A stretch of 64,000 bases of DNA from Xanthostigma xanthostigma (taxonomy: Eukaryota; Arthropoda; Insecta; Raphidioptera; Raphidiidae): positions 47,255,665 through 47,319,664 of the forward strand of contig OY754468.1 of assembly GCA_963575645.1 (NCBI GenBank), read 5' to 3'. The notes under the pieces are model-generated. The model was given only the letters and a program-made list of their open reading frames with translations, did not search any database and was not told the origin of the DNA. Made by a program: the position numbers and the translations under genes. Below are positions 20,289-54,703 of the stretch, one piece after another (within the stretch, counting starts at the first letter, position 1; the number at the start of each line of letters is the position of its first letter).

Positions 20289-20612
20289 ATTTCCACTGAA
20301 TGGCTGAGTCAATGGTTATCTAACTGCAATTATTTAGATCTTCTAATATTTTACAGTTATAGTAAAGGTGCGTATATACCTAAACCGAATCTCGTCATTA
20401 ACTTCGAACTGGTTCAATATCGTTCCGCTGACAACTTCGAGTTGAAGGAAACAAATATTGTAGTCAGTGTCAGCGAATTACGGACCGATTTCGTTCTACA
20501 GTGTCTTAAAATCCGAACGGAGAGGTGGAAACACCGAATCTACTCGAAAATTTCAGACAATCGGGATAGTAAGTATGCTTTCTTATTCGAGGATGAACTG
20601 TGCAGTCTAAGG
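20289..20612 (+). pseudogene. 5' part of an open reading frame broken by the foldback element
   Basis: This frame is open for 108 codons from just after a TAG at 20286-20288 to the insertion point. A good splice acceptor, TCTAATATTTTACAG, ends at about 20356, so the true exon may start there. The text looks protein-like (ELRTDFVLQCLKIRTERWKH, YAFLFEDELCSLR). The last codon AGG is the end of the 8-bp target duplication. Reading resumes in the same phase at 23520 after the element (KDWKHIRQLLDVGVDIS). I do not recognise the family. It could be a host exon or a reading frame of an older element. Confidence 0.45.
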
Positions 20613-20713
20613 GGGAGTACCTAAATTGCATACCCACGTACCAGTACGCAGTCTGCGTACCAATCAGCAGTAGCAAAAATGTTTCAATGGACTACCCCAT
20701 GGCTTTAAAATAT

Positions 20714-21440
20714 CTGCGTACCGGTGATTTTCATCACTTTAAGGTGTATATTGTTGCGTACCGACTGAAATATTGGATACTGATAATTTATTTATGTCTA
20801 CAGGGTGATTTCACATCTAGTTCCCACTGAAAATGTCTGCGTACTGGCGATTTTCATCGCTCTAGGGTGCTATACTGTTGCGTACCGACTGAAATCTAGA
20901 AAAATGTTCATTTATTTACTTCTACAGGGTGTTTTCACATCTAGTTCCCACTGAAAATGTCTGCGTACTGGCAATTTTCATCGCTGTAGGGTGTTATACT
21001 GTTGCGTACTGACTGAAATCTTAAAAAATGAACAATTATTTATGTCTACAGGGTGTTTTCACATCTAGTTCCCACTGAAAATGTCTGCGTACTGGCGATT
21101 TTCATCGCTGTAGGGTGTTATGCTGTTGCGTACTGACTGAAATCTTAAAAAATGAACAATTATTTATGTCTACAGGGTGTTTTCACATCTAGTTCCCACT
21201 GAAAATGTCTGCGTACTGGCGATTTTCATCGCTCTAGGGTGCTATACTGTTGCGTACCGACTGAAATCTTGAAAAATGTTCATTTATTTACTTCTACAGG
21301 GTGATTTCACACCTAGTTCCCACTGAAAATGTCTGCGTACTGACGATTATCATCGCTATAGGGTGCTATACTGTTGCATACCGACTGAAATCTTGAAAAA
21401 TGATAATGTATTTATGTCTACAGGGTGTCTACAGTTAGTA
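20714..21440 (+). repeat. Left tandem array, six 124-bp units
   Basis: The period is 123 bp for the first step and 124 bp afterwards. Each unit carries GGCGATTTTCATCGCT, GTGCTATACTGTTGCGTACC and TCCCACTGAAAATGTC. The outermost unit is the most diverged (CCGGTGATTTTCATCAC). Two linker types occur: one with TTCATTTATTTACTTCTACA, one with GAACAATTATTTATGTC. Confidence 0.92.
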
Positions 21441-21944
21441 CAGTGCACTCTGCGCGTAAACTAGCGATATGACGCTATATATAATGAAGACAACCCTAAT
21501 TTGTAGGGTTTGTATTAATCTTCATTATAAATTTATTACAATACATTCAATATAATGAATATTAATGATGAATTATTTGACATATGATATAATGTTACGT
21601 TTTTTATTTGTTATAGTAATTATTATAAAGAATTTAAATATTTATTTTGGTTTTATGCTTGTTTTCTTTTTATATCTTTAATATATGTGTTTATAAATTT
21701 TAAACACAAAATAAATGTTGAGTCTATAGGTACCTACTTAGTTGTTTATGTTATGATAAATCGTATTCTTAGTGCCTATATAAATATAAATAACGTATTT
21801 ACAGAAGTAGTACTGTACAGTTTTAGTTTTTATATTTTTGAAAAAAAAAACATTTTTAGAAAAAAAATCAAGCTAGATGTTTTTTTTCAAAAAAAAACAC
21901 GAAATTCTGAAAAAAACACACGTTTTTTTTATTTGCATCACTAG
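21441..21944. other. Unique centre of the foldback element
   Basis: This is very AT-rich sequence with no second copy in the window. An 85-codon frame (21687-21944) is Ile, Asn, Lys and Phe-rich and runs into the arm, so it is not convincing. No transposase motif was seen. Confidence 0.6.
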
Positions 21945-23420
21945 TGAAAACACCCTGTAGACATAAATAATTGTTCATTTTTTAAGATTTCAGTCAGTAC
22001 GCAACAGTATAACACCCTACAGCGATGAAAATCGCCAGTACGCAGACATTTTCAGTGGGAACTAGATGTGAAAACACCCTGTAGACATAAATAATTGTTC
22101 ATTTTTTTAAGATTTCAGTCAGTACGCAACAGTATAACACCCTACAGCGATGAAAATCGCCAGTACGCAGACATTTTCAGTGGGAACTAGATGTGAAAAC
22201 ACCCTGTAGACATAAATAATTGTTCATTTTTTTAAGATTTCAGTCAGTACGCAACAGTATAACACCCTACAGCGATGAAAATCGCCAGTACGCAGACATT
22301 TTCAGTGGGAACTAGATGTGAAAACACCCTGTAGAAGTAAATAAATGAACATTTTTCTAGATTTCAGTCGGTACGCAACAGTATAGCACCCTAGAGCGAT
22401 GAAAATCGCCAGTACGCAGACATTTTCAGTGGGAACTAGATGTGAAAACACCCTGTAGAAGTAAATAAATGAACATTTTTCTAGATTTCAGTCGGTACGC
22501 AACAGTATAGCACCCTAGAGCGATGAAAATCGCCAGTACGCAGACATTTTCAGTGGGAACTAGGTGTGAAAACACCCTGTAGAAGTAAATAAATGAACAT
22601 TTTTCAAGATTTCAGTCGGTACGCAACAGTATAGCACCCTAGAGCGATGAAAATCGCCAGTACGCAGACATTTTCAGTGGGAACTAGATGTGAAAACACC
22701 CTGTAGACATAAATAATTGTTCATTTTTTAAGATTTCAGTCAGTACGCAACAGTATAACACCCTAGAGCGATGAAAATCGCCAGTACGCAGACATTTTCA
22801 GTGGGAACTAGGTGTGAAAACACCCTGTAGAAGTAAATAAATGAACATTTTTCAAGATTTCAGTCGGTACGCAACAGTATAGCACCCTAGAGCGATGAAA
22901 ATCGCCAGTACGCAGACATTTTCAGTGGGAACTAGATGTGAAAACACCCTGTAGACATAAATAATTGTTCATTTTTTAAGATTTCAGTCAGTACGCAACA
23001 GTATAACACCCTAGAGCGATGAAAATCGCCAGTACGCAGACATTTTCAGTGGGAACTAGGTGTGAAAACACCCTGTAGACATAAATAATTGTTCATTTTT
23101 TAAGATTTCAGTCAGTAATCAACAGTATAACACCCTACAGCGATGAAAATCGCCAGTACGCAGATATTTTCAGTGGGAACTAGATGTGAAAACACCCTGT
23201 AGAAGTAAATAAATGAACATTTTTCTGGATTTCAGTCGGTACGCAACATTATAGCACCCTAGAGCGATGAAAATCGCCAGTACGCAGACATTTTCAGTGG
23301 GAACTAGATGTGAAATCACCCTGTAGACATAAATAAATTATCAGTATCCAATATTTCAGTCGGTACGCAACAATATACACGTTAAAGTTATGAAAATCAC
23401 CGGTACGCAGATATTTTAAA
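21945..23420 (-). repeat. Right tandem array, twelve ~124-bp units
   Basis: Unit landmarks (CGCCAGTACGCAG on the plus strand) fall at 22041, 22166, 22291, 22415, 22539, 22663, 22787, 22911, 23035, 23159, 23283 and 23406. Periods are 125 bp for the first two steps, 123 for the last and 124 for the rest. Linker types alternate: GACATAAATAATTG with CAGTCAGTACG, versus GAAGTAAATAAATG with CAGTCGGTACG. Units are far more alike than the flanking ends, which implies recent expansion or conversion. Confidence 0.92.
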
Positions 23421-23519
23421 GCCATGGGGTAGTCCATTGAAACATTTTTGCTACTGCTGATTGGTACGCAGACTGCGTACTGGTACGTGGGTATGCAATT
23501 TAGGTTCTCCCGTCTAAGG

Positions 23520-32077: not shown

Positions 32078-32830
32078 AGTAGTATTTAAACGAGTGACTG
32101 TACCTAAATTACAATTTTGGGTGACAAAAATAATCAATTTGGGTTACTGTATTACTAAGTAAGCGACTGACTGCGCATAACGAGAAAATAATAGTTGGGT
32201 GACTAAATTACTAAGTGACCAACTAAATTACTAAGTGAGCGACTAAATTACTAAGTGAGCGACTGAATAGAACTGCGTTTTCTAAAAAATATATATTTAA
32301 TTGACTGTCAATTAAATATACATTTTTTAGAAAACGCAGTTCTATTCAAACAATTAACTATTTAATTCGCATACCCCGATATCATTCACCCCGGAATTGT
32401 TTTTTTAAAAACTCAACATTTACTCCTTCCCGTTTCATTGCGAGACAATTCGCATACCCTTTTATCGTTCACCCCGGAATTACAATTCGCATACCCGTTT
32501 ATCGTTCACCCCGGAATTATTTTTTTTTAAAACTTCACCTTTGCTCTATCGCGTTTCACTGCGAGACAATTCGCATACCCCTTTATAAAAAAAGCGGTGG
32601 TTTTCAATCTTCATGAAAATGTGAGTTTTAAGTTGTAGTCTCAAAGTGAAAAAAAAAATAAAAAGTAAAAACAAAAGAAGATATCTGCTTCAAAATTACC
32701 GAAGGCATTCTAGTCGCTCACTTAGTAATTTAGTCACCCGACTATTATTTTAATATCTCAAGTTATTAAAACAGTATCTCATCATCAGTCACCAAATTTG
32801 TTTTTTTATTCGACCGTTTTATAATTCCCC
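32078..32830. mobile_element. 9-bp-TSD family, copy 1, 753 bp, TSD GTTTAGAAT
   Basis: Perfect duplications lie at 32069-32077 and 32831-32839, inside repeat O. The ends GAGTAGTATTTAAAC and GTTTTATAATTCCCC form a weak inverted repeat. Internal modules include tandem ACTAAATTACTAAGTGAGCG units, a palindrome TTAATTGACTGTCAATTAA, and three iterations built on AATTCGCATACCC plus TTCACCCCGGAATT. The opposite-strand copy is 37088-37986. A 9-bp TSD suggests Mutator-like or Merlin-like transposition. No transposase. Confidence 0.9.
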
Positions 32831-36893: not shown

Positions 36894-38010
36894 TTGATCA
36901 AAAATGGTTTTATTTTATAGTTTAAAGGTCACTAAAAAAAATGTCCATGGGCGCATAACCTAAAAAACAATTGATTTTTAGCTACAGAAATCTCGCTAAA
37001 CATATCTGTATAGCTAAAAATCTATTGGACTTTAGGCTATGCGCCCATGGACACTTTTTCTTAGTGACCTTTAAACTATAAAACAAAGGGGAATTATAAA
37101 ACGGTCGAATAAAAAAAAATGGTGACTGATGATGAGATACTGTTTCAATAACTTGAGATATTAAAATAATAGTTGGGTGACTAAATTACTAAGTGAGCGA
37201 CTAAATTACTAAGTGAGCGACTAAATTACTAAATGAGCGACTAGAATGCCTTCGGTAATTTTGAAGCAAATATCTTCTTTTGTTTTTACTTTTTATTTTT
37301 TTTTTCACTTTGAGAGTACAACTGCTTAAAACTCACATTTTCGCATGAAGATTGAAAACCACCGCTTTTTTTGATAAAGGGGTAGGTATGCGAATTATCT
37401 CGCAGTGACACGCGATGGGGCAAAGGTGGAGTTTTTAGAAAAATAATTCCGGGGTGAACGATAAACGGGTATGCGAATTGTAATTCCGGGGTGAACGATA
37501 AAGGGGTATGCGTATTGTCTCGCAGTGAAACGAGAAGGGGCAAATGTGGAGTTTTTAAAAAAACAATTCCGGGGTGAACGATAACGGGGTATGCGAATTA
37601 AATAGTTAATTGTTTGAATAGAACTGCGTTTTCTAAAAAATGTATATTTAATTGACAGTCAATTAAATACATATTTTTTAGAAAATACAGTTCTATACAA
37701 ACAATCAACTATTAACAAAATGCCGCTCAGAATAAATAAATCATTTGCCAAAGTTTGAAAAAAATGCAGGACGTAACGTTGACACTCAAACAAATATTAG
37801 GTCGCTCAAATATTATGAAGTTTCCCATTTTGTATTTTAAGTAACTCAAATGGATGTTTGTAGGTTGCTGTTCTGTTGAGATCTCGTCACGCGCAGTCAG
37901 TCGCTCACTTAGTAATACAGTAACCCAAATTGATTATTTTTGTCACCCAAAATTGTAATTTACAGTCACTAGTTTAAATACTACCCTAAAACAAAACCAT
38001 AATCGATCAA
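36894..38010. mobile_element. Palindromic MITE interrupted by the 9-bp-TSD element
   Basis: The left arm TTGATCAAAAATGG with TATAGTTTAAAGGTCACTAA and CCATGGGCGCATA is mirrored to 37087. Removing 37088-37995 joins ACTATAAAACAAA to ACCATAATCGATCAA, the exact complement pattern of the left end. Original size about 209 bp. Confidence 0.8.
37088..37986. mobile_element. 9-bp-TSD family, copy 2, 899 bp, TSD TAAAACAAA
   Basis: Perfect duplications lie at 37079-37087 and 37987-37995. It begins GGGGAATTATAAAACGG and ends AGTTTAAATACTACCC, the reverse orientation of copy 1. It has extra tandem ACTAAATTACTAAGTGAGCG units and an additional block near 37740-37910 absent from copy 1. Iterated AATTCCGGGGTGAACGATAA modules recur three times. 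The 85-codon minus frame at 37286-37543 is made of these iterations. Confidence 0.9.
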
Positions 38011-41770: not shown

Positions 41771-42782
41771 TTTGTTATATAATATAGGCCACCGGGCGGT
41801 CACAGTATATTGCTATTATTGTCGTATAGAAGTACTATAGATAGATAGATAGATAGATATATATTTTTTCGCGTAGCCACAAGGGACGCGAACGTCAAAA
41901 ACAATACAATATTGTATAAAATAAAATACATGATTATAACTAATACGAATAATTGAAGACGAAAGTCATGTGGTCACAGAACTATATAAAACTCGGAAAG
42001 TGGCCTCTTATACACGGCGTTATATGGGAGAGAGGCAAAATCAATGTATAAGAATCTGTTAGAGATGTGCGGAATCTAGCACAGAAGAGAATCTCTAACG
42101 AGATTCTCCGATATCGACTATACAATGCGCCAATTTTGTCAAATTATGTCTCGAAACTCAAAACAGCCCATGAAATCATTATTTCGATCCGAATGATCGT
42201 CTGGCGTGACAGACAAACGCACTTTTTGCAAGAAATGCGTTTTTTGCAGTTAGGTACTCCGAGGGGATAAGAAAATGTTCCACGTGTGAAGCTGGATTCT
42301 GGAGTTAAGTTGAGATAATTATGATCCATTTTATTCATAAAAATTCGATAGGTGCAAACGAATGTTCGTGAATTTGATGTTAGGGACCTCTTATAAAGTT
42401 GATTTTTAATTACATCAATTACGCAATTAAATTTATTGTTTTATATTCTTATATATTGTCTAGACCTAGGTCGTCCATAAAAATCTATAAAATTTGCGTG
42501 GGTTTTCTAATATTAATTCCTACATTTACATTTTATAACGAAGGTAGGTATAATAAAATATTAAAAATGAATTAATTATTGAGTAAAACACGATGATAAC
42601 AGAACAGTCTTATTTCTTCAAAATAGCATTTATTATTTATTTATTAACCTGAAGATTTTTGTAACACCACGTCTTAAAAAGCTACGCCGTCACTGGTGTA
42701 CCCTTCTGGTCATGTGGAGAAACAGAGGCAAGATGGCAGCGGAGCGTATGAACTAGGAGTAGTGTTCATTTTAAAAAAAACT

Positions 42783-43130
42783 TAAATTAATAAATGTATT
42801 GAATTAAATAATATTCATGTTACAAACTTACGGTAATAAATATGTTGAATTAAATAATATTCATGTTACTAACTTACGTTAATAAATATGTTGAATTAAA
42901 TAATATTCATGTTACTAGCTTACGTTAATAAATATGTTGAATTATATATTATTCATGTTACAAACTTAAGTTAATAAATATTTTGAATTAAATAATATTC
43001 ATGCTACTAACTTACGTTAATAAATATGTTGAATTAAATAATATTCATGTTACTAACTTACGTTAATAAATATGTTGAATTAAATATATTCATGTTACAA
43101 ACTTACGTTAATAAATATGTTAAATAAAAT
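42783..43130. repeat. Tandem repeat, ~58-bp unit, six copies
   Basis: TAATAAATATGTTGAATTAA with ATAATATTCATGTTAC repeats about six times with single-base changes. A GATA microsatellite lies further left at about 41842-41863. Confidence 0.85.
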
Positions 43131-43751
43131 AATAATAATTGTTACAAAAGAAGTTTGTTTGTGTGAACGTACGTACGTACTTACGTGGTCATTTATTCCT
43201 AGCACAAAATCTCCAGAACAAAAAATGATATCTATTTCGTTATAGGGTGCCAACCAACGTGTGTTGACGTCAATATTTTAATTTGACAAAAATAAAATTC
43301 TATTATTATAACGGTGAGCCGGCTCTGTGTTTTATTGGAACAATGAAATATTTCTACATGGTTAACACATTTACGAACACTTAAAAAATTTCATTCATAA
43401 TATTAATAAAAGCCGGAAATTCGTCAGCATGACTTTTATGTACTGCCAACTTGAAATTAAATGTTAAATCATGAAAACGTAAAAAGAAATACCAATTTGA
43501 GTTTTTTTCCGTGCTTAAAAAAATAATATACATTATAATAGACGCTAATGATATTCGCTGACGAGCGTCTATAATCTACAATTTATCTTTAAACTATAAA
43601 ATAAGTAATATGTTTTTTTTACTGTAAATATCTCAAGAGTAGAATAATAGAACAATAACTTCCGCAATATAGAAATTTATGGTCATTTTATTTTATTATT
43701 TGACCATCTATTTGAGGTGACTGAAAACCTATACTACCCATATAGTGCGAG

Positions 43752-54034: not shown

Positions 54035-54616
54035 TTATAAACAAGTATTAATCGTCTTTTTAATGCGACACAATTTGCATTTCACCTCGCAACACCAGTG
54101 AAATATACATTGACATCTTTCAACGACAGTCACTTCTTGTGTACGATAGCCTCTGCCACAGCACATTAGATCACAACCATCGACACCTATTGATGATTCG
54201 TTGCATTGTCTTCCATGGGTCCCAAGGATTCCCAGCCTCGCGTTCTTCTCGCAGAAATTAGGCGATGGCTCTAAATAAACCAAATCTTTTTTACCTGGTG
54301 GCTTGTGCTCGGGATTGTAAGGTTTCAGCTGGAAATTGTATCGATTTCTTTTCTTGCCTTCGCCTCGTTTGCGCGGACCGTGAATACTGTTTGAGTTGAT
54401 GCCGTGGGTGCTAGAAGCACTGTTGACACTATGGACGTTGCTTGACCGGGAACTTCCGGAATTGCTGACCAATACACGCGACGCACCGTCAAAACGGTCT
54501 TTTAATTGGTCGCCAATTTGACGGAAGCTCGGCAAACGCATCCAACAAGTTTTTACCGTGCAGGAACCTGACATCCCGTGACATTTGCATTCTTGACGCA
54601 TGCCTTGTAACACGTG
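54035..54616 (-). CDS. wg: wingless (Wnt1), terminal coding exon
   Basis: This exon encodes the last 193 residues of the secreted Wnt1 ligand, which signals through Frizzled and Arrow/LRP6 to beta-catenin. The start is fixed by the acceptor TTTCTTTTGTTCCAG just upstream (minus strand), so the first codon is His in [19 protein letters not shown]. The Ser in GMSGSC (exon residue 16) is the Porcupine palmitoleoylation site. Residues 37-46 are the [10 protein letters not shown] block typical of Wnt1. A Ser/Asn-rich then basic insertion (about 50-85) precedes [18 protein letters not shown] and [15 protein letters not shown]. The C-terminal cysteine-rich domain is complete ([36 protein letters not shown]), with an NES glycosylation sequon, and ends TCL before the stop. 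Earlier exons lie beyond position 64000. Confidence 0.96.
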
Positions 54617-54703
54617 CTGGAACAAAAGAAAGTTTGTTTAATTAACTCGAAATAAAAATAAAATGCAATGCTGGATTAGTAGATCTATTCATAGTGGCCT
54701 TAA

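Follow-up and report, generated by a model that had tools for sequence, protein, structure and literature searches.

A foldback element with inverted arrays of a 124-bp unit in Xanthostigma xanthostigma is probably a non-autonomous Mutator transposon

We analyzed a stretch of 64,000 nucleotides from the insect Xanthostigma xanthostigma (Raphidioptera; assembly GCA_963575645.1, contig OY754468.1, positions 47,255,665 to 47,319,664), referred to as the window, which contains a foldback-type element of 2,899 bp (window 20613-23511) flanked by the 8-bp direct repeats GTCTAAGG. This element is very probably a non-autonomous, internally deleted cut-and-paste transposon of the Mutator (MULE/IS256) superfamily, with foldback-type terminal inverted repeats (TIRs) and a transposase supplied in trans by 15-kb relatives. 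The assignment follows from these relatives, which share its ends and arrays and encode a MULE transposase, and from target site duplications (TSDs) of 8-9 bp. An earlier note on this DNA, made from the letters of the window, had held that the superfamily could not be assigned; the relatives now provide that assignment.

Structure of the element and its genomic copies

Both arms of the element consist of a 94-bp terminal domain that is directly followed by tandem 124-bp units. The left terminal domain (20613-20706, plus strand) starts with GGGAGTACCTAAATTGC and contains the palindrome GTACGCAGTCTGCGTAC, while the right domain (23418-23511, minus strand) starts, as reverse complement, with GGGAGAACCTAAATTGC, and both share the beginning GGGAG(T/A)ACCTAAATTGC. 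The left array comprises 5.8 units (20707-21428, plus strand; 91% matches according to Tandem Repeats Finder, TRF) and the inverted right array 11.9 units (21944-23417, minus strand; 93% matches), which agrees with the six and twelve units described in the earlier note, as do the matching ends. An inverted repeat of 821 bp with 97% complementarity forms the outer part of the arms (20613-21433 and 22691-23511), and the element thus has the long TIRs built of tandem repeats that characterize foldback elements. The 8-bp TSD that had been reported for this copy is intact on both sides (20605-20612 and 23512-23519). An Rfam scan of the whole window returned no matches.

To place the element in its genome, we searched the assembly (623 Mb in 28 contigs, with the window copy on C5) with window 20600-20800 for the ends and with one 124-bp unit for the arrays, the unit counts being lower bounds. 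The ends are present at eight places, of which six are elements with both ends and two are fragments with a single end (110 bp on C10 at 5.87 Mb and 103 bp on C4 at 46.17 Mb). At least 147 unit matches were found genome-wide, every one of them within the six two-ended elements. Two of these elements are short (the window copy and one on C3) and four are long, namely a 15.3/15.7-kb pair on C1 (C1a at 46.57 Mb and C1b at 5.41 Mb) and two copies on C10 (11.48 and 12.66 Mb). The number of units per array varies from 2.6 to 27.8 among the copies, and the longest arms measure ~3.5 kb.

Intact TSDs can be read in four of the six two-ended copies and are different in each: 9 bp in the C3 copy (GGTATATTG), in C1a (ATCAAAATG), and in C1b (CAAAAATAC), whereas the window copy has one of 8 bp, which is thus not the usual length in this family. 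The earlier note had regarded copies without 8-bp TSDs as speaking against its reading; the three 9-bp duplications refine that reading rather than overturn it. Both copies with unreadable TSDs reside on C10. At 11.48 Mb, the final 18 bp of the copy and thereby one end are missing, and the copy at 12.66 Mb has rearranged flanks. In the latter, a direct duplication of ~125 bp (95% identity; L017 413-541 and L018 from 7819) is present in both flanks, and 57 bp of the right flank recur inverted in the left flank of the 11.48 Mb copy (L014 426-482), which points to rearrangement between the C10 copies. A tRNA search in three C10 loci found none.

Candidate transposase of the long relatives

The search for full copies with a transposase-coding centre, which the earlier note had proposed, revealed a MULE gene in all four long copies. 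Both C10 genes are damaged, with the one at 11.48 Mb lacking its N-terminal part and the one at 12.66 Mb containing a stop. Both C1 relatives encode a predicted spliced protein of 908 amino acids, which in C1a (minus strand, locus L009) is composed of three exons separated by GT..AG introns of 327 and 785 bp and has no internal stop. The exon joins agree with the relatives P0002, P0004, and P0007, which are single proteins running through the joins. Pfam scans gave scores above the curated cut-offs for CG-1 (PF03859; 27.9 bits, cut-off 23.5), MULE (34.0 bits, cut-off 27.6), and Peptidase_C48 (43.7 bits, cut-off 20.7). CG-1 also exceeds its cut-off in four of the seven relatives scanned, and a further protein, P0024, unites a MULE region (18.0 bits, below cut-off) and a C48 domain (64.1 bits) in a single chain. 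In a structure model, the predicted catalytic part best matched ISCth4 of the IS256 family.

The predicted domain order is a CG-1/WRKY-like DNA-binding domain, the MULE transposase, a SWIM-like motif, and an Ulp1-type (C48) protease. No SWIM model was matched in Pfam; the putative SWIM-like motif (CxC..CxH at 572), the presumed catalytic triad D256/D319/E435, and the C48 residues were read by eye. Downstream of the transposase stop codon lies a reading frame with a PHD finger. Comparison of C1a with C1b also revealed a near-palindromic segment of ~575 bp (L009 2280-2854; 92% identical to its own reverse complement) between the left array of C1a and the PHD-finger frame.

A genome search with the transposase gave 15 matches, which are full-length only in the two C1 copies. 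Fragments are present at three further C10 places (9.04, 12.107, and 12.685 Mb; L026-L033), and distant relatives with 29-31% identity at 9.86 and 11.33 Mb. Apart from the two C1 copies, all matches are on C10, where the fragments at 12.107 and 12.685 Mb resemble an inverted duplicate pair. The SWIM/C48 exon alone, used as a protein query, retrieved 3,472 candidates, with none at E<=0.001, and a search of viral contigs with the transposase alignment gave 84 pattern matches, none of them a relative. CG-1 exons also occur on C2 of the same genome, and in our own reading these look like CAMTA. DNA-binding domains common to WRKY/GCM1-type regulators and Mutator transposases are a known theme, into which a CG-1 transposase fits.

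The TSDs of the Mutator superfamily are ~8-11 bp long, mostly 9 bp, and the FLYWCH finger, like CG-1, is a member of the WRKY/GCM1-like folds. The family described here has a MULE-type DDE transposase and TSDs of 9, 9, 9, and 8 bp in the four readable copies, as expected for Mutator elements; TSDs of 8-9 bp are normal among insect MULEs (PMC5225508). When the two main reading frames were scanned with Pfam at E<=1, CG-1 was found but not the N-terminal FLYWCH zinc finger that marks the Phantom MULEs (PMC3169594), so that the family does not appear to fall within this subclass. The same scan detected neither a P-type transposase nor a THAP domain, the hallmarks of Galileo and the P superfamily. 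These results bear on the alternative that the element is a foldback of another superfamily, for example a Galileo-like P element, which is moved by an unrelated transposase, with the MULE gene merely nested in the long copies. Galileo does have similarly long, internally repetitive TIRs (PMC3688188). However, the length of the TSDs fits MULEs, the MULE gene is present in every long copy, albeit damaged in the two on C10, and around it no end of another inserted element was recognized, although no systematic search for such ends was made. We therefore consider this alternative exceedingly improbable and retain the assignment to Mutator.

Recent movement, composite centre, and function of the arrays

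The two C1 copies align over 15,314 bp without a mismatch, and their single gap of 372 bp, located close to the inner boundary of the longer array, corresponds to exactly three 124-bp units. They are separated by 41 Mb, point in opposite directions, and have different intact 9-bp TSDs. Likewise, the window copy and the C3 copy are identical at all but one of 2,899 bases and have different TSDs. This recurrence of the whole structure at another target site indicates that the inverted arrays are not a chance arrangement and hardly a local assembly artefact, which the earlier note had considered. The short copies and the C1 copies have arms that are ~93-95% similar, which implies that the short form was not derived from these very copies. 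Near-identity combined with different TSDs suggests that the family has moved very recently. Gene conversion between old insertions might also have made the copies alike, since conversion can affect long inverted repeats and arrays and since the C10 copies have rearranged flanks. Such conversion would, however, have to account for C1 identity that is full-length up to flanks with different intact TSDs, and for short copies on different contigs (C5 and C3), and it must have stopped at both ends, twice. We regard it as very unlikely and favor recent transposition. A search of this assembly for the window insertion site in empty form found none and met only the two flanks themselves; because the assembly represents one haplotype at best, this absence carries little weight.

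The central ~0.5 kb of the short element, initially described as unique sequence, turned out to be composite. Its first 39 bp (21431-21469, plus strand) match, at 97%, the sequence that borders the array of the long relatives on its inner side, and the following ~480 bp (21465-21943, plus strand) match another dispersed repeat at five places (84-90% identity, at one of them over partial length only). Copies of this source repeat (L036-L039; C1 26.0 Mb, C4 28.58 and 10.59 Mb, and C1 77.5 Mb) are 97-99% alike and carry tandem arrays of 40-bp and ~125-bp units. The joins of the filler show microhomology of 4-5 bp (CGATA at the left join and ACTA(G) at the right one), which is compatible with capture by template switching, as in animal Pack-TIRs and FB4 (PMC8277862).

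These features can be combined into a putative mechanism. The CG-1 domain would bind repeated sites in the terminal domain and in the array units, and DDE catalysis, as expected from the superfamily, would excise the element and reinsert it with the 8-9 bp TSDs that we observed. The whole-unit difference between otherwise identical copies indicates that array length may shift in such steps. In the short form, the interior of ~10.8 kb would have been replaced by a fragment of another repeat, as the junctions suggest, most simply if gap repair was interrupted and the template switched at microhomologies. This form, mobilized in trans, would then have transposed again to yield the near-identical C5 and C3 copies at their different target sites.

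By analogy with Galileo, the arrays may serve as transposase-binding platforms. Terminal domain and majority unit each contain two copies of the motif GCGTAC, which occurs 38 times in the arms compared with 12 times in the remaining 61 kb of the window, the high number in the arms being due to repetition itself. Of 2,000 shuffles, 43 equalled the best single 6-mer common to terminal domain and unit, and one equalled the total of common 6-mers, a degree of sharing that common ancestry would also produce. The proposed binding step is weakened by the conservation of the two 7-bp GCGTAC sites: over 136 units, in which they are present in 131 and 124 cases, they rank at the 42nd and 65th percentile and give no sign of special conservation relative to the rest of the unit. 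It is therefore a distinctly plausible alternative that the arrays are passive, having expanded by unequal exchange or slippage without any role in transposase binding or transposition efficiency. The widely ranging unit number (2.6-27.8 per array) agrees with such passive behavior, and the arrays of Tetris likewise shift by single units (PMC4079207). The sharing of 6-mers between terminal domain and unit, which was above all but one of the shuffles, speaks for a function, with the same reservation regarding ancestry, and the tandem repeats of Galileo do contain transposase sites (PMC3688188). Beyond this, we can only speculate that the CG-1 transposase might represent an animal MULE lineage with a true CG-1 domain that bridges WRKY and CAMTA, sharing a transposase ancestor with the CAMTA domain, and that its 124-bp arrays might be multi-site landing platforms whose length tunes mobility; as a whole, this scenario seems rather unlikely.

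Elsewhere in the window, a wingless/Wnt-1 exon is located at 54035-54637 (minus strand), ~30 kb from the element, and a 46-bp tandem array with 8.1 copies at 42778-43148 (TRF). The exon indicates an insect host; in a listing of 120 of its 349 hits, identity peaked at 87% for a hit spanning 43% of the query and at 77% for hits spanning at least 90% of it. Similar 20-bp and 37-bp repeats are found at 32201-32586 and 37179-37518, ~5 kb apart, with the 37-bp repeat in opposite orientation.

Comparison with known systems

Among the closest parallels are insect MULEs such as Muta1 and its relatives in Aedes aegypti, which share TSDs of 8-9 bp, tandem-repeat TIRs, heterogeneous non-autonomous interiors, and near-identical copies with the family described here (PMC5225508). 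Of the 14 families described there, all with 8-9 bp TSDs, ten have subterminal tandem repeats, but with units of 9-15 bp instead of 124 bp, and Muta1 itself is 3.2 kb long with TIRs of 145 bp. Their transposases comprise 416-554 residues, 13 families having FLYWCH and one having SWIM; the protein found here, by contrast, has 908 residues with CG-1, SWIM-like, and C48 parts (PMC5225508). The Mutator/Foldback element Tm1 of root-knot nematodes similarly contains a MULE transposase within composite repetitive TIRs, has 9-bp TSDs, and exists in coding and non-autonomous forms, but its unit is ~14 bp, its transposase is a FLYWCH protein of 496 residues, and a heading of that paper states that there is no evidence of recent movement (PMC3169594). 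The Cg-1 named in that paper is a nematode gene and not the CG-1 domain.

Tetris of Drosophila virilis resembles the element in its long TIRs, tandem units of ~220 bp, outer flanking domain, and allele differences of one unit; its TSDs are 8-10 bp, and 8-9 bp in complete copies (PMC4079207). Tetris units also form satellite arrays, whereas the unit matches found here all lie within the six elements, and in what that 2014 paper describes Tetris has no known coding partner, whereas an apparently intact candidate transposase is present here (PMC4079207). FB4/NOF of Drosophila melanogaster, regarded as probably MULE, is described as a foldback with 9-10 bp TSDs, TIRs of ~700 bp, and filler acquired via template switching (PMC8277862). 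Galileo shares the long, internally repetitive TIRs, in which transposase sites occur both close to the end and within the tandem repeats, but belongs to the P superfamily and has a THAP domain (PMC3688188). The CG-1 domain is shared with CAMTA transcription factors (fold: PMC9252788), although CAMTA is a host regulator and not a transposase.

We came across neither this family in the literature searched nor CG-1 in a transposase in the listed titles and abstract openings of open-licence papers. The suggestion in the earlier note of an undescribed foldback lineage holds for the foldback form and, within the literature searched, for the family, but not for the superfamily, which can be assigned. 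These results link a foldback whose TIRs are arrays of large units with a candidate transposase that appears intact and is encoded in the same genome. Copies that are identical save for whole units suggest that unit number can change between two transpositions, which makes a role of array length testable. The results also add sequence-level evidence for CG-1, the DNA-binding domain of CAMTA, in transposases to the structural link in PMC9252788. Taken together, the kind of element is known from insect MULEs with tandem-repeat TIRs and from Tm1 and Tetris with composite or arrayed TIRs, and C48 and SWIM, found beside plant MULEs, are not new either; the 124-bp unit, the arms of up to ~3.5 kb, the CG-1-MULE-SWIM-C48 protein, and the long copies that differ solely by whole units appear to be new.
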